DNA of 49,290 nt, from NCBI GenBank assembly GCA_028532855.1, contig JAQQAL010000012.1:1-49290 (forward strand). Reading direction: 5' to 3'. The notes beneath the pieces were generated by a model. It worked only from the letters and a program-made list of their open reading frames with translations, searched no databases and had not been told where the DNA came from. Position 1 is the stretch's first letter; every line of letters starts with the position of its first letter. The position numbers and the translations under genes were made by a program. This document shows, one piece after another, positions 38,406-45,047 of this stretch. Source of the DNA: Candidatus Thalassospirochaeta sargassi (lineage in GTDB: Bacteria; Spirochaetota; Spirochaetia; UBA9216).

Positions 38406-38421
38406 TAAAGAGGTGGTTAGG

Positions 38422-39363
38422 ATGACGGCATCATTATCAGGCTTTCTCAAGATAGCTGTATTTATTCTTCTTGGACTGACTTTCAGGAAAAGCGGTATCC
38501 TGAATGAGAAGGATGTTTCGGGATTAAAAAAAATTATTCTGAATGTAGCAATTCCCTCCGTGTTATTCATTTCCTTTGCTAATCTTGAATTCAGTCTTAA
38601 ATTTATTCCGGTGATCCTTGTGATTTTCGGATTGAATCTTTCCCTGTTCTGGCTTGGTGTTCTCATTTACAAACTGACGGGTTCTAAGCATCGTGTTCTT
38701 CCTCTGCTTCTAAGCACATTCAATTTTGCATTGATTGGAATCCCGTTATATGATTCTATTTACGGGATAGAGTATCTGCATAATTATACGATGCTCGGTG
38801 TCGGGAATGAAATTTTTGTGTGGTTTGTATTCTACTTTATGTTCAGGTGGTTCCTGACGAAGGGAAAGGCTGAAAAGGGGATAAATACCGGTTTTTTTAA
38901 ATCTCCTATTGTCTGGGGAATATTCTTTGGCTGCCTTGCCAGTATTTTTAACCTGAACATTTCATCAAGCTCTAACTTTTTTATTAAGGGCATTTATGAA
39001 ACCCTGACAGCAGCCTCTGGGCTTACCACTCCTTTGATCCTGATTTTTATCGGGTTCCATGTCTCCGCGCGCATCTCCCATATTGTAAATTCGGCAAAAC
39101 TGGTTGTATTACGGCTTGTTCTTGCCTGCTCAATAGGTTATCTATTGAAAATCACTGTACTGAACAGGGTTATTGAATCTACAGTATATTCTGATTCGGC
39201 GTTCTTTCTGTTCAGTACACTGCCGGCCATCTTTTCGGTCCCCATTCTGGCGGCTGATTATATTACTGAGGATGAGACAGCAGTACTTAACAACACTATT
39301 GTCCTTCATTCCATTGTGACAATTGTTCTGTTCGCACTATATACTATTTTTCTAAGTCCCTGA
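38422..39363 (+). CDS. AEC-family (auxin efflux carrier-like) transporter
   Basis: Integral membrane protein (313 aa) with about ten hydrophobic segments and an inverted-repeat arrangement typical of the AEC family. Examples are FNFALIGIPLYDSIYG near residues 97-112 and LPAIFSVPILAADYI near 271-285. Bacterial members move malate, malonate or other organic acids; a product or intermediate of the adjacent inositol pathway would fit but is not shown. ATG 38422 is preceded by AGAGGTGG; a GTG at 38413 lies within that ribosome-binding site. It converges with and overlaps the next gene by 20 bp. Confidence 0.85.
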   Translation: MTASLSGFLKIAVFILLGLTFRKSGILNEKDVSGLKKIILNVAIPSVLFISFANLEFSLKFIPVILVIFGLNLSLFWLGVLIYKLTGSKHRVLPLLLSTFNFALIGIPLYDSIYGIEYLHNYTMLGVGNEIFVWFVFYFMFRWFLTKGKAEKGINTGFFKSPIVWGIFFGCLASIFNLNISSSSNFFIKGIYETLTAASGLTTPLILIFIGFHVSARISHIVNSAKLVVLRLVLACSIGYLLKITVLNRVIESTVYSDSAFFLFSTLPAIFSVPILAADYITEDETAVLNNTIVLHSIVTIVLFALYTIFLSP

Positions 39364-40462
39364 TTTCACCCTTAGGCAGTCTCATGTTCTTACCGCTCAT
39401 GATCTGAGCAATCATTTCATCGGATACAGTGTGATTGAAAAATGTCTCATAAAAAGACCGGGCTTCATCCTCAATGCTTAGATCAGAGAAGCGATCCGGA
39501 TAGAGAAGTTTTGATGTCCACAGCATAGCCAAGGGAGTTTCCATGCCTCCGGGGTGGCCCCACCGTGATATACCTATGGGTATCTGGTACACCCGGCCGT
39601 CCTGCACGGCCTTGAGTCCTGCCCATTTTTCGTTAGACCGAATGTATTCATCCACGCCTTCCTGGTTTGCAATAATAACATCTGCATTCCATAGGTATAT
39701 CTGCTCAAGTGAGGCGTAATACTTATTGTCGTGAAATCTAAGAGGAGAGCCTACTGATACGTTGTATGCTCCGGAGAGTTCAGTCCATTCAGCCGGCAGG
39801 GTGTTAGGGGCGTCTGTTCGGCTTGCTTCATTTACCGAGTGATAAATTCTCACCCTCTCGGATGCCGGAATATCGACAACCCTCGATTCTATAAAGTTGA
39901 TCTGTCTCTGGAAATAATTGTTGAAGGCCACAGCCTTTTCCTCACGTCCTATAACCTTACCGATAAGCTCAATTGCATACATCTGCTCTTCAATAGTATT
40001 GAAATCTATTATTACATAGGGCAGGTTGAAGCGCTCGAGTTTTTCAATCTCGGCTGGCATCATAGCTGTTTCACCCTTCAGAAGGATGATGTCAGGATCA
40101 ACATTCAGCAGCTCCTCGATATTGATCACTCCATCGTCCGATGGAATTGCCGCATCCTGAATATAAGGATTTATTTCGTTCAACAGCCTGTCTCTTTTTG
40201 AACCGTAGACGACTGAAACGATGTCCTCGCCGCGATCAAGCATTGTTACGACATGAGCGCTGAATGCGTATATACAGGAAATCCTTTCGACAGTAGCCGG
40301 TATCTCTACCTCTCGATCGAAGCAGTCTATTATAGTAAACGGATTGCCCCCGGGCTGAATTTCCGAGATTGATACCTCTTCATGTGTTCCTGCGGCGGTG
40401 AGAGGTATTGCTATTGTGAGAATTAGTGCTGTTGTGAGCAGTGCTCGTTTTAAAGTGTTCAA
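39344..40462 (-). CDS. Iron-complex/cobalamin-type ABC substrate-binding protein
   Basis: Exported TroA-like binding protein (372 aa, PF01497 type). Signal peptide ends near LTAAGTHEE (residues 20-28). The core has FDREVEIPATVERISCIYAF near 47-66 and VDPDIILLKGE near 121-131; the C-terminal part includes GISRWGHPGGMETPLAMLW, characteristic of the Fe-siderophore/haem/B12 binding group. The ligand is not determined; siderophore, haem, cobalamin or another metal complex are options. Last gene of a tight four-gene import operon; starts 2 bp after the ATPase stop. Confidence 0.88.
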   Translation of the reverse strand: MNTLKRALLTTALILTIAIPLTAAGTHEEVSISEIQPGGNPFTIIDCFDREVEIPATVERISCIYAFSAHVVTMLDRGEDIVSVVYGSKRDRLLNEINPYIQDAAIPSDDGVINIEELLNVDPDIILLKGETAMMPAEIEKLERFNLPYVIIDFNTIEEQMYAIELIGKVIGREEKAVAFNNYFQRQINFIESRVVDIPASERVRIYHSVNEASRTDAPNTLPAEWTELSGAYNVSVGSPLRFHDNKYYASLEQIYLWNADVIIANQEGVDEYIRSNEKWAGLKAVQDGRVYQIPIGISRWGHPGGMETPLAMLWTSKLLYPDRFSDLSIEDEARSFYETFFNHTVSDEMIAQIMSGKNMRLPKGEIRDLEK

Positions 40463-40464
40463 AT

Positions 40465-41283
40465 TTATGACTCCTTTATCGCATTTATCGGGATTAGGCT
40501 TTTAAGCTCGCCTGATTCTGAGCTGTGGCTTATCATCGCAGTGTTTACATTGAAGGCGCGCGCCATGTTTTCCGGGTTTAGCACAGATGAGGGGCATCCT
40601 GTTTCGGTGAGTTTTCCGTTTTCAAGCAGACCGGCTCTCACAGGGATCCCTCTATTCTCAAGGAAGAAGGCAAGGTAGGGGGAATGGGTTGTCAGCACTA
40701 CGGATCGGCTGCCTTTTGAGATAATATTTATGATCATCTCAAGCAGATGCATCTCATTTCTGAAATCAAGATGGCTTGAAGGCTCATCCATCACAAGTAT
40801 GGGGGCTTCCTGTGCAAGGGCTCTGGCAATAAGCACCAGCTGGCTCTCACCGCCTGAAAGCCGGGTGTAGTCTCTGTCGCTGAGATGCGCCAGCCCCATG
40901 TTTTCAAGTACATCTGATGCAATTTTTCTGTCATTCGCATCCGGTGAATCGAAGAAGCCTGTGTAGGACGTTCGACCCATCAAAACTACATCGAAAACGG
41001 TAAATGGAAAATTCTTCTGATGGCTCTGGGGGATGTACGCAAGAAGCTGTGCGGTTTCTGTCGGATGAAGGTCGGCAAGATTTTTTCCATTTACTGTTAT
41101 AGAACCGCTTTCGGGTTTATTCAATCCAAGAAAACAGTCTAAGAGGGTGGTCTTCCCGCTGCCGTTCGGACCCAGCAGACAGAACACCTCTCCATGATTA
41201 ATTGTGAGGCTTACATTTTTCAGTACCGGAAGCCCCTCGTATCCGAATACAATGTCGCGGGCTTGAATTAGCGCACTGCTCAT
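40465..41283 (-). CDS. Iron-complex/cobalamin-type ABC ATPase (FecE/BtuD-like)
   Basis: Cytoplasmic ATPase (272 aa). Walker A GPNGSGKTT near residues 36-44, signature LSGGESQLV near 139-147, Walker B ILVMDEPSSHLD near 159-170, and switch His in TTHSPYL. The start at 41283 overlaps the permease stop as ATGA; an in-frame ATG at 41292 would add three residues and has AAGGGGAAGGG directly before it. Partners are the permease at 41280 and the binding protein at 39344. Confidence 0.93.
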   Translation of the reverse strand: MSSALIQARDIVFGYEGLPVLKNVSLTINHGEVFCLLGPNGSGKTTLLDCFLGLNKPESGSITVNGKNLADLHPTETAQLLAYIPQSHQKNFPFTVFDVVLMGRTSYTGFFDSPDANDRKIASDVLENMGLAHLSDRDYTRLSGGESQLVLIARALAQEAPILVMDEPSSHLDFRNEMHLLEMIINIISKGSRSVVLTTHSPYLAFFLENRGIPVRAGLLENGKLTETGCPSSVLNPENMARAFNVNTAMISHSSESGELKSLIPINAIKES

Positions 41284-42296
41284 GATTCCCATCCCTTCCC
41301 CTTTGTGATTTTTAGCAGATAGATGAAAAAAGGTGCTCCTATGAAGGCTGTGAGAATACCAAGCGGCAATTCGCTGCCGGATATCAGTCTGGATATATCA
41401 TCTACAATTAGCAGAAAACAGCCTCCCAGCGAGAAACTGAAGGGAACCAGGTGCCGATTGTCACTGCCGGTGATCATTCTGCCCATATGTGGGATGATGA
41501 GTCCAACCCATCCTATGACACCGCTTACGCAGACGGCGCCGGCGGTAGCCAGGGTTGCACATGCCACAACGAATATTCTTGTAAGTCTCAGATCCACACC
41601 CATTGTCCGCGCTTCCTTCTCTCCCATGGCAAGAACGTTGATTCTATACCTAACGGCAAAAAGGCCAATACTTCCTGCCGCCATTGGAATACCAGCAAGC
41701 AGTATATCCTTATATCTGGCCGATGCGAGGCTTCCCATCAGCCAGAAAACTATGGCCGGCAGCTGATCGTAGGGGTCGGCTATATATTTTAAAAATGAAA
41801 CTCCTGCAGAAAACAATGAGCCCACAATTACGCCGCCGAGGACGAGGGTAATATTAGTTGCTGTCTTGTATATTCTCCCGACAAAATAACTGAAAAGTAC
41901 GGCAAGGCTTCCGAATAAAAAGGAGATGGGGTAAACCAGTGGAGTGCTGCCGAAGATGATTATAGCCAAGGCGGCGCCGAAGCCAGAACCGTTGCTTACC
42001 CCCAGCATCCCCGAACTTACGAGCGGGTTGCGGAACAGGCCCTGAAAGGCCGTACCGGATACAGCAAGACTTCCTCCTACCATTACCGCCAGAATAGCCC
42101 GCGGCAGTCTTATGTAATTGATTATAGCCATTGTCCGCGCATCGATTGCTGTACCGAAGAAAGGATTCAGAAGTGACGCAATCACATCGCCAACCGGAAT
42201 CGGATATCTTCCGAGACATAACGATATAAGTATGAGTATGACTGGTGCGGTCGGTATTAGAATATAGAAGGCCGACCGCCGGCGGACCGGCTTCAT
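41280..42296 (-). CDS. Iron-complex/cobalamin-type ABC permease (FecCD family)
   Basis: Integral membrane permease (338 aa) with about ten helices. FecCD signatures include LPRAILAVMVGGSLAVSGTAFQGLFRNPL near residues 63-91 (quoted in parts: RLPRAILA, VSGTAFQGLFRNPL) and GVIGWVGLIIPHMGR near 259-273, which contacts the ATPase. Starts 3 bp after the small Ig-like gene. Confidence 0.94.
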   Translation of the reverse strand: MKPVRRRSAFYILIPTAPVILILISLCLGRYPIPVGDVIASLLNPFFGTAIDARTMAIINYIRLPRAILAVMVGGSLAVSGTAFQGLFRNPLVSSGMLGVSNGSGFGAALAIIIFGSTPLVYPISFLFGSLAVLFSYFVGRIYKTATNITLVLGGVIVGSLFSAGVSFLKYIADPYDQLPAIVFWLMGSLASARYKDILLAGIPMAAGSIGLFAVRYRINVLAMGEKEARTMGVDLRLTRIFVVACATLATAGAVCVSGVIGWVGLIIPHMGRMITGSDNRHLVPFSFSLGGCFLLIVDDISRLISGSELPLGILTAFIGAPFFIYLLKITKGKGWES

Positions 42297-42299
42297 TGA

Positions 42300-42716
42300 C
42301 TATTCGGCAGTTGTGAAGGTGACGAAGTTGTCCTTGCCCAGATTGTTGCCGTTCTTGGCGAGCAATTCCCCGGAGATAATCAGTGTATATTCAGTTCCGG
42401 GTGCCAAAGGTTTAACCGGGGTCAGGGTTATATTTCTTTTGTTTTCGGGTTCCATCTGATCATCGGGAAGGTAGACGTCTATCTCAACCTCATTACCTTC
42501 AGCGTTTAACAGGCTGAAACATCCAAGGTTATTATCAGATACCGTCATATTAACTACATTGCTGCTGAAACCGAGTTCTATTGCGGTATCTACTGCAACT
42601 GCAGTGGCACCGTCTTCGGGGACTGATGATTTTAGTGAAACAGGTTTATTGCCGGCAAAAACTGAACCCGATGCTATGATAGAAAAAACTATTATTATTA
42701 GAATTGTTTTTTTCAT
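42300..42716 (-). CDS. Small secreted Ig-like (Big_5-type) protein in the importer operon
   Basis: A 138-aa protein with a cleavable signal peptide (ends SVFA-GNKP near residue 22). The mature part is a single bacterial Ig-like domain of the SbsA/Big_5 sort: SSVPEDGATAVAVDTAIELGFS near 30-51, LTPVKPLAPGTEYTLIISG near 97-115 and a final FVTFTTAE. Such domains normally appear in surface or adhesive proteins, often as repeats. A free single domain 3 bp upstream of a metal-complex permease is unusual. It could be a periplasmic or surface accessory that holds the ligand or the binding protein; this is inference. Confidence 0.75.
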   Translation of the reverse strand: MKKTILIIIVFSIIASGSVFAGNKPVSLKSSVPEDGATAVAVDTAIELGFSSNVVNMTVSDNNLGCFSLLNAEGNEVEIDVYLPDDQMEPENKRNITLTPVKPLAPGTEYTLIISGELLAKNGNNLGKDNFVTFTTAE

Positions 42717-42777
42717 TATACCTTAACTCCTTAGAAGATTGACTACTCAGCGAGTTTATCATGAAATAATTATCAGT

Positions 42778-44337
42778 TCAATTGATGTATAATTCCTCTC
42801 CGTCAAAGAAAATAGTATAGGTTTTTTCCCGTCCATTTGGGTGACGCTTTAAAAAGGCCTCCGGTGAACAGCCTGAAAGTTCGTCAAGGATTTCAGGCCT
42901 CCGGCATAATTTTACGGGAAACTCCCTACCGGGGTTTGCGAAGGCTTGTTCCGCGGTTCTGCTCCATAGAATAAAGCTTTCAATAACAGGAAATAGTTTC
43001 TGTCTCCCGTTACTGTAAAACTCGGCTCTGATGAAATCAAGGACATTCAGGTTACGGTGGCGGTTAAACGCTTCAAATAATTCAGACGGAGTCAGTTCCA
43101 TAGCCTCGGTTACGGCATTAAACCATGGGAAGGCCTGCTCTTTGTTATAGAACTGGTCCACCGCTTCAGTAAGTTTCGCGGCGAGTGCAATATCCTCAGC
43201 GCTGAAACTGGTATTTGATATAATCTGATATTCCGGGAAGCCGATTTCTTTCAGGTTCAGCTCTTCCTTTCTTTCAGAGATTTCAGTTCCCGGAAGTACC
43301 GAAAGCGGGAATATATCGATATTATTGGGTACGGCTTTGACGGCAAAATCAAGCGATTCCCTGAAGCTGTTATAATTATCTGCCGGTAATCCGTATATTA
43401 AATCAATGCCGAAGCTCAGACCGTATTCGGACATCATGCGGCAGTTATTCTGGAATTTCTTCCTTGATAGCCTTCTGTTTACAATCTTACCCGCATCGGG
43501 GTTGATAGTCTGCAGACCTATCTGCAATGATATATTCAACTCGGACATCATGCTGCAGAGTTTCTCCGTCATAAGTTCAGCCCTTATCTCAAATGTATAA
43601 TGTGCTTCAGGATAAATCTCTGCAATTCTCGCCAATACTTTTTCAGCATGCCCGTGATTATAATTGAAGGTGGGATCAAGTACCCAGATTTTTTTAATTT
43701 CATTTTCTCTGAAAATATGAAGCTCAGCTCTCATTTTGTTCTCTGGTATAGTACGAACTGTTTTGCTGCCTCTTGATTCGTAGCAGAAGGCACAGCTGTA
43801 GGGGCATCCGCGTGAGACCTCCCATAATATTCCGCTGTGTTTTTTAATAACATCTGCGGCAGCAGGGTAGGGTGAAGGTGAACTCTCAAAATCTGCAGCA
43901 GGGGCGTCGATGAGTTGAGTTGTTTGATTGCCGCTGCAGCTTTCGGCAGTCAGGGCATCTACAATTGCTCGTTCTCCTTCTCCCCGGATTACTGCATCAA
44001 AGCATTCCGCGTTTAGAAATTGACTGTGATCAGCACTAGCCTGGGGACCGCCTGTGATAAGACGAATGGATGGATTCATAGCTCTGATGGCTGAAGCAAT
44101 GTTTATTATAGCCGAAGCATTCCAGGTGTATGCAGGAAAGCAGCAGGCGTCTGTACCGGATTCAGCAAGTTCCCTTGCTGCTGCATAGGCTGAAACAGGC
44201 AGATAATATTCTATCAGTCTGACGTCGGAATCGGAAGTCCGGGGATCAGCTTTTGTCGCAGCCTTTAGAATGGCTGCCGCAAGAGGGAATGCGGGAGGTG
44301 TTTCTTCTACGTGAATGGAAATGATGCTTATTGTCAT
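42778..44337 (-). CDS. B12-binding-domain radical SAM protein
   Basis: Radical SAM protein (519 aa). An N-terminal Rossmann-like, B12-binding-type domain (residues about 1-130, with ITGGPQASADH near 94-104) precedes the radical SAM core. The cluster motif is CPYSCAFC with Cys178, Cys182 and Cys185. ITGGPQ and FDAVIRGEGE are typical of this class (BchE/MiaB-like, DUF4080 group), although the canonical DxHxxG cobalamin motif is not obvious. The reaction is unknown. It ends 61 bp upstream of the Ig-like/ABC operon on the same strand, and may be co-transcribed with it. Confidence 0.85.
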   Translation of the reverse strand: MTISIISIHVEETPPAFPLAAAILKAATKADPRTSDSDVRLIEYYLPVSAYAAARELAESGTDACCFPAYTWNASAIINIASAIRAMNPSIRLITGGPQASADHSQFLNAECFDAVIRGEGERAIVDALTAESCSGNQTTQLIDAPAADFESSPSPYPAAADVIKKHSGILWEVSRGCPYSCAFCYESRGSKTVRTIPENKMRAELHIFRENEIKKIWVLDPTFNYNHGHAEKVLARIAEIYPEAHYTFEIRAELMTEKLCSMMSELNISLQIGLQTINPDAGKIVNRRLSRKKFQNNCRMMSEYGLSFGIDLIYGLPADNYNSFRESLDFAVKAVPNNIDIFPLSVLPGTEISERKEELNLKEIGFPEYQIISNTSFSAEDIALAAKLTEAVDQFYNKEQAFPWFNAVTEAMELTPSELFEAFNRHRNLNVLDFIRAEFYSNGRQKLFPVIESFILWSRTAEQAFANPGREFPVKLCRRPEILDELSGCSPEAFLKRHPNGREKTYTIFFDGEELYIN

Positions 44338-44405
44338 ATATTCTTCGCCTATAAAGATAACTGTATATTAAATGCAGCTGATATTCAATCGAGCATTCTA
44401 TGTTT

Positions 44406-44426
44406 GCACAAAAGTGCGTTTTGTGC
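44406..44426. promoter_or_regulatory. Inverted repeat between divergent genes
   Basis: GCACAAAA (44406-44413) and TTTTGTGC (44419-44426) form a perfect 8-bp inverted repeat with a 5-base centre. It lies between the divergent radical SAM gene and the unknown gene at 44493, a typical operator position. The cognate regulator is unknown. Confidence 0.5.
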
Positions 44427-44492
44427 CGAAAAACACTGGAAAGACTTCACATTTAATCGTAAATTAACCCTGAATTAACGGTAAAGACACAA

Positions 44493-45047
44493 ATGGGGAT
44501 AATAGCGAATTTGTCAAGAAAAAGTTTTAAAAAAATGCAAAAAACACTTGATTTTATAGAATCAAACTATTATTTTATCGATATAAGGCTTGGAGCCGAG
44601 GAGTATGGAATGACTCAGAGAAATAATAATGAAGTCCTAAAGGCAATGTTCCTGAAAGAAGGAATTGAATTCCCGAATGATGATGGATGGAACTCACTTG
44701 CTGAGCATGTTGAAGTTCATAATCAGTATCTTACTATGAAGCTTGGTTTCAATGTGACATGGAAAGATGCAGTATTTTCATGGTATGAGAATATTTACAC
44801 CCCTCTTTACAGAGCGATAATGAAGAGAAGTGTACTTAGAGCACTTCCTTCAATGACAACTGGTGAAATTTATCTTGCTGTATCAGACCACTGGTTTTAT
44901 CTCAAGGAAAGAGATGAAGACATCTCAGCCGAGATTGCAGCATATGATTTTGTTTACAGGAACAGAGAGCGAAAGAATCTTATTAAAAAGATGTTCAACT
45001 TTCATGGTTCAGACAATATGCCTAAAGGCAGGCTTTCAGCTGCCTGA
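44493..45047 (+). CDS. Protein of unknown function
   Basis: A 184-aa soluble protein without signal peptide or membrane segment, rich in aromatic and charged residues. I do not recognise the family. Two stretches have a similar pattern: EHVEVHNQYLTMKLGF with DAVFSWYENIY near residues 69-99, and DHWFYLKERDEDIS with AAYDFVYRN near 131-155. This suggests an internal repeat of an His-x-x-Tyr-Leu helix unit, vaguely like DUF4032-type proteins (low confidence). No clear ribosome-binding site precedes the ATG. A strong terminator follows, supporting that it is a real transcribed gene. Confidence 0.65.
   Translation: MGIIANLSRKSFKKMQKTLDFIESNYYFIDIRLGAEEYGMTQRNNNEVLKAMFLKEGIEFPNDDGWNSLAEHVEVHNQYLTMKLGFNVTWKDAVFSWYENIYTPLYRAIMKRSVLRALPSMTTGEIYLAVSDHWFYLKERDEDISAEIAAYDFVYRNRERKNLIKKMFNFHGSDNMPKGRLSAA

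Follow-up and report, generated by a model that had tools for sequence, protein, structure and literature searches.

The window analysed here, a 49,290-nucleotide stretch of contig JAQQAL010000012.1 (GenBank assembly GCA_028532855.1) from Candidatus Thalassospirochaeta sargassi, carries on its minus strand a four-gene cassette (42716–39344) encoding an exported immunoglobulin (Ig)-like protein, a FecCD-type permease, an ATP-binding cassette (ABC) ATPase, and a periplasmic binding protein. The cassette is likely a MolBCA-like (type II, FecBCD-type) importer of molybdate, tungstate, or both, to which the exported Ig-like protein is an accessory. The first gene (42300–42716) encodes the Ig-like protein of 138 residues, which contains a Big_5 domain (PF13205) and is 64% identical to its orthologue in congener G004. 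It is followed by the genes of a 338-residue FecCD/BtuC-type permease (41280–42296; FecCD 286 bits), a 275-residue ATPase (40465–41292; ABC_tran 112.8 bits), and a 372-residue, MolA-like class III binding protein that starts from a TTG codon (39344–40462; Peripla_BP_2 50.9 bits). The Ig and permease genes are separated by 3 bp, the permease and ATPase genes overlap by 13 bp, and 2 bp separate the ATPase gene from that of the binding protein. The permease, ATPase, and class III binding protein share one operon, as in MolBCA-type importers. A gene for a radical S-adenosylmethionine (SAM) protein lies 61 bp upstream of the Ig gene and extends to position 44337. An earlier note on the window had described these five genes; its coordinates, strand, and domains, as well as its 3 bp and 61 bp spacings, agree with the gene calls and Pfam scores.

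The Big_5 match of the Ig-like protein scores 54.8 bits against a cut-off of 23.6 and spans profile positions 2–105 of 105. The N-terminus (MKKTILIIIVFSIIASGSVFA/GN) looks by eye like a signal peptide, and the protein has neither a lipobox nor a C-terminal anchor. The window genome contains eight Big_5 matches, of which the other seven lie in reading frames of 492–1911 residues. The window protein is 33–47% identical to the Ig proteins of a second phylum, and nine residues (F50, N53, N63, F67, D86, Y110, K121, G123, and F134) are invariant across 19 aligned members. In most of these members, the alignment shows by eye the Ig domain followed by a linker, a C-terminal hydrophobic segment, and a basic tail; the hydrophobic segment is absent from the proteins of the window, G004, L148, and L151. 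Because of the C-terminal segment and tail of most members, the Ig protein is probably located at the outer face of the inner membrane, close to the permease. The single-sequence AlphaFold2 model consists mostly of strands and, with a predicted local distance difference test (pLDDT) score of 50, is not good enough to support a fold search. A PDB sequence search with the window protein gave no significant match. Plasmid searches returned a single weak match for the Ig protein and only distant ones for the binding protein.

The occurrence of the cassette was surveyed in 98 relatives, 392 genomes of the window phylum, and 299 genomes of the second phylum, two phyla in all. The second phylum, Bacillota according to the NCBI classification of Desulfallas, was reached by a scan of genome contigs with poorly suited peptides (NTIEEQM, FHDNKY[YF]), which returned the contig of G004 itself and one Desulfallas locus. 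The Ig profile matches 23 of the 299 second-phylum genomes at E ≤ 1e-4; the E-values given here derive from small profiles. Gene neighbourhoods were read at 20 regions taken around strong Ig matches. An importer follows the Ig gene at 14 loci, which belong to 13 of the 299 genomes, and at 11 of these loci the FecCD, ATPase, and binding-protein genes succeed it in that order. The 11 loci include L151, where the FecCD gene is split and the binding-protein gene extends past the contig end. In L145 the Ig gene is followed by a FecCD fragment and a binding protein, and in L149 and L155 by a binding protein only. The six remaining regions comprise two energy-coupling factor (ECF) operons (L163 and L164), a locus by a TiaS/Mmp11-like gene (L160), a helix-turn-helix (HTH) fusion (L162), a locus with no clear partner (L154), and one in which the frame was not recovered (L161).

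A reverse search of the same 299 genomes with the binding-protein profile (E < 1e-150) identified 14 loci, 13 of which have the Ig gene alongside. The gene order Ig, FecCD, ATPase, and binding protein also occurs in G004, the genome of which is 81% complete. The Ig gene and the importer therefore form a real recurrent cassette, beyond what chance would produce. Ten of the 14 Ig-importer loci have a TiaS/Mmp11-like gene after the binding-protein gene, and such a gene is also present in L160, L164, and L208. The earlier note had read the Ig-fold protein as an accessory of a metal-complex/corrinoid importer and proposed a search for its recurrence. Its assignment to the importer stands, as 13 genomes have the gene beside importers, at 14 loci in total; the corrinoid role is not supported.

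The molybdenum/tungsten cofactor (Moco/Tuco) riboswitch RF01055 precedes the Ig-importer operon in nine of 13 judgeable loci (L145, L146, L147, L148, L151, L156, L157, L158, and L159); the fourteenth, L152, could not be judged because its sequence starts at the end of a contig. Seven of the nine have the riboswitch directly before the Ig gene. In L146, an S-layer homology (SLH)-Ig protein is encoded in between; L147 has a TupA-like transport set there, together with an SLH protein. In G004, RF01055 (71.2 bits) lies between the radical SAM and Ig genes and overlaps the Ig start, and the gap between the two genes is longer than the 61 bp of the window. When the window gap (42717–42777, minus strand) is aligned to G004, the sequence before the aptamer and the AAGGAG ribosome site after it are retained, and the aptamer is missing; by this alignment, the window species has lost the riboswitch. 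No sigma-70-like site was found within the 61-bp gap, and the window operon may be read from the promoter of the radical SAM gene or left unregulated. In the window genome, G001, and G003, RF01055 also accompanies FecBCD sets whose binding proteins are weakly related, and the second-tier loci L209 and L210 carry it too; three other weakly related FecBCD loci (L080, L081, and L113) have none. The Moco/Tuco RNAs that lack P3 associate with the tungsten cofactor, according to the available part of a published description (PMC2408646). By eye, P3 is present in the G004 and G003 copies and absent from the compared Bacillota copies and from the six copies of the window genome. Since copies occur with and without P3, this class of importer may handle both molybdenum and tungsten.

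The fold of the binding protein points to the same substrates. Foldseek ranks MolA (3psa) first of 1503 matches to its model (pLDDT 62), with an E-value of 1.1e-19 and 22% identity, and a phmmer search of solved structures places MolA second of 14 at 97 bits, after 4ovk at 106 bits. The binding proteins of G004 and the window are 78–80% identical, and the window permease shares 55–62% identity with those second-phylum permeases that are Ig-linked and intact. Because RF01055 precedes orthologous operons and MolA is the best fold match, the substrate of the importer is very probably molybdate or tungstate, a reading carried over to the window species from these homologues.

Several observations weigh against this reading. 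The similarity to MolA is remote, at about 22% identity, and comes from a weak model (pLDDT 62). The clade of the binding protein has the motifs HSxNEAxRTD and SRWGH, and since these are not kept in MolA, the binding pocket may differ. The riboswitch is missing at the gathering score from four of the 13 judgeable second-phylum loci (L149, L150, L153, and L155), and in the window no RF01055 was detected at the gathering score, nor at E ≤ 5 over positions 42200–44500. Finally, the Ig protein is replaceable, since the orthologous operon of G575, the sole Ig-less locus of the reverse search, encodes before FecCD a 185-residue lipoprotein with an Oxidored_molyb domain, a molybdopterin-binding fold (L208:9906–10463). 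RF01055 is still present upstream of the G575 operon.

The G575 lipoprotein, which takes the place of the Ig protein under RF01055, speaks for the possibility that a bulky molybdenum or tungsten species, either the pterin cofactor as such or a complex with a chelator or siderophore, is imported and held by the Ig protein. Large ligands are usual for FecBCD-type importers, and an RF01055 operon of the window genome (L206) joins an Oxidored_molyb domain with an ABC importer. However, the molybdenum cofactor is labile outside proteins. Bare molybdate is the cargo of MolBCA, the nearest relative with a solved structure, as stated in the accessible part of its description (PMC4031551). We regard a bulky ligand as unlikely. 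An iron-siderophore or haem importer, in which the Ig protein would be a haem- or copper-type (CopC-like) accessory, is highly improbable. Generic FecBCD/HmuV similarity and a weak CopC match of 20.0 bits would suit such a system, but the CopC match is below the Pfam cut-off of 23.3 and reaches 17.4 of the 95 bits set by NCBIfam, so a CopC-like copper role was rejected, and the riboswitch linkage points to molybdenum and tungsten.

The radical SAM gene (42778–44337, minus strand) encodes a 519-residue protein with Radical_SAM (71.6 bits) and B12-binding (41.2 bits) domains. Its homologues (E ≤ 1e-40) are found in 29 of the 98 relatives, including the window genome, and all four congeners have them at 50–61% identity. 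Of 11 non-window loci that were read, one (G004) has the cassette alongside, one (G002) is cut by a contig end, and nine are without it. On the other flank of the cassette, the window encodes a Mem_trans permease on the plus strand (38413–39363); in G001, the homologue of this permease is 27 bp from the radical SAM gene, with no cassette between them. Because of this arrangement, the radical SAM gene is placed outside the cassette, as an older bystander. A 184-residue protein encoded at 44493–45047, in which no Pfam domain reaches its cut-off, is conserved next to the radical SAM gene in G001, G002, and G004.

A corrinoid importer that feeds the neighbouring B12-type enzyme, as the earlier note had proposed, would agree with the B12-binding domain of that enzyme and with BtuC being the best named model of the permease. 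We consider it extremely improbable. All Btu cut-offs of NCBIfam are far missed (BtuC 215 of 461 and 192 of 334 bits, BtuD 110 of 281, and BtuF 15.5 of 234), and no cobalamin riboswitch is present at the gathering score upstream of the cassette, elsewhere in the window, or at the related loci included in the scans, whereas Moco/Tuco riboswitches precede orthologous operons. The enzyme was also rejected as a partner of the importer, since its gene is kept in congeners without the cassette; the suggested use of imported cobamide is thus not supported.

The Ig gene is present in two of the 98 relatives, the window genome and G004. Among the 392 window-phylum genomes, only the window yielded a strong member with the Ig profile; matches at E ≤ 0.001 occur in 31 genomes, including that of the window, and those of the other 30, at E 1e-7 or weaker, are nearly all in long frames. 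The G004 cassette is split over contigs C413 and C313, the flanks of which match. The four cassette genes were gained, or lost, as a single block, because the Mem_trans gene of G001 adjoins the radical SAM gene with nothing between. In phylogenetic trees, the window and G004 are placed within one clade with second-phylum loci (support 98/97 for binding proteins and 97/97 for permeases). These Ig-linked clades also contain the sole Ig-less locus, and their inner branching is mostly without resolution. Because of the clade shared with the second phylum and the absence of the cassette elsewhere in the sampled Spirochaetota-side genomes, the cassette was likely acquired by horizontal gain, presumably into the lineage of the window species.

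The gene content of the window genome fits a role in molybdenum and tungsten uptake. The genome has six RF01055 copies, the targets of which are an adenylosuccinate-lyase-like gene, an aldehyde ferredoxin oxidoreductase gene accompanied by a ferredoxin, a TupABC-like set, a ModA-like gene together with a second FecBCD set, a TiaS/Mmp11-like gene, and an ABC set that includes an Oxidored_molyb protein. It also contains four genes of the aldehyde ferredoxin oxidoreductase family and two MoeA genes. The strongest RF01055 copy (72.8 bits) lies directly before the adenylosuccinate-lyase-like gene (L203:4981–6705, contig C22), an unexpected target. The ABC set with the Oxidored_molyb-domain protein is located at L206:5847–10856 (C40), and the gene similar to TiaS and methanogenesis marker 11 at L207:9467–10375 (C6) has its own riboswitch.

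In the molybdate/tungstate importer that we propose, the binding protein, permease, and ATPase would carry the oxyanion to the cytoplasm for enzymes that use the molybdenum or tungsten cofactor, for example the aldehyde ferredoxin oxidoreductases encoded by the window genome. The Ig protein would be positioned outside the inner membrane, periplasmic in the window species and C-terminally anchored in most relatives, where its most likely role is to capture the oxyanion or to hand it over, either to the binding protein or to the permease. In the relatives, the riboswitch presumably shuts the operon off when the cofactor is plentiful; the G004 copy overlaps the ribosome site of the Ig gene.

The same Ig domain family is represented in two ECF operons that carry RF01055, in G716 (L164, two riboswitch copies) and in G634 (L162–L163), where three tandem riboswitch copies in L162 are followed by a giant SLH protein and then by the ECF genes in L163. 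The ECF-type sets (L164:7524–13137 and L162:11667 to L163:9376) consist of two ATPases, a CbiQ-type T component, an S component, and an Ig protein. The S component carries the motif HLPGHSSI[FY]WM, and both sets come with Moco/Tuco riboswitches; they are candidate ECF importers of molybdate or tungstate. The S component was found in two of the 299 second-phylum genomes, both of which have the Ig gene. In L162 (10258–11388), an HTH_3 protein with two Ig domains and no visible signal peptide adjoins three tandem Moco/Tuco riboswitches and is a possible molybdenum/tungsten-sensing regulator. These occurrences suggest that the Ig family is a new molybdenum/tungsten-linked domain. Two importer types and one regulator, all linked to these metals, share the domain, and it is therefore suggested to bind the metal species. 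It is conceivable, though we lean slightly against it, that the Ig subfamily is a new extracytoplasmic molybdenum/tungsten-handling domain of the unrelated MolBCA-like and ECF importers, reused as the likely sensor of the HTH regulator, a cytosolic protein, and that together with the TiaS/Mmp11-like protein it constitutes an undescribed uptake module of anaerobes.

The window has no Rfam match at the gathering score and no tRNA gene. A clustered regularly interspaced short palindromic repeats (CRISPR) array with repeats like GTTCCCCGCACCTGCGGGGATGAACCG is located at positions 27–1398. Its first spacers recur near 1277–1370, which may represent a repeat or an assembly overlap.

The pairing of an importer with an exported Ig-like helper recurs in distant anaerobes, and we found no prior description of it. 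Titles and abstract openings, with few subscription papers among them, tie no exported Ig-like protein to molybdenum or tungsten, to the riboswitch, or to FecB/FecCD sets, and mention neither an ECF molybdenum importer nor a FecBCD set under a Moco riboswitch. A 2018 molybdenum survey lists, in its accessible sections, three prokaryotic uptake systems for these metals, ModABC, WtpABC, and TupABC, and also records molybdenum users that lack all three (PMC6147048). A MolBCA-like importer with an Ig partner and a Moco/Tuco riboswitch, and the rarer ECF version with the same partner, are candidate uptake routes for such users, and both lend themselves to tests in culturable anaerobes. For FecBCD-type importers, a much-studied transporter class, an accessory protein that recurs would be an additional component.

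The orthologous operons and the other molybdenum/tungsten genes of the window genome resemble the Moco/Tuco regulon in carrying RF01055, whereas the window operon itself has lost it. The accessible text of Regulski 2008 (PMC2408646) names ModABC, TupA/B, and WtpA as members of the regulon; no FecBCD set accompanied by an Ig protein is among them. The cassette is built from the same permease, ATPase, and binding-protein superfamilies as BtuCDF, FecBCD, and HmuTUV, but misses all their curated cut-offs and differs in regulation. MolBCA of Haemophilus influenzae (HI1470-72) is likewise a type II importer with a FecCD-type permease, provides the best fold match of the binding protein, and has molybdate/tungstate ligands that agree with the riboswitch linkage of the orthologous operons. 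Its binding protein is about 22% identical and unlike in the clade motifs, and no Ig partner is mentioned in the available part of PMC4031551, whereas the window cassette adds an exported Ig-like partner. Within Big_5 (PF13205), the importer-linked Ig proteins form a recognisable subfamily, marked by the residues invariant in its 19 aligned members.

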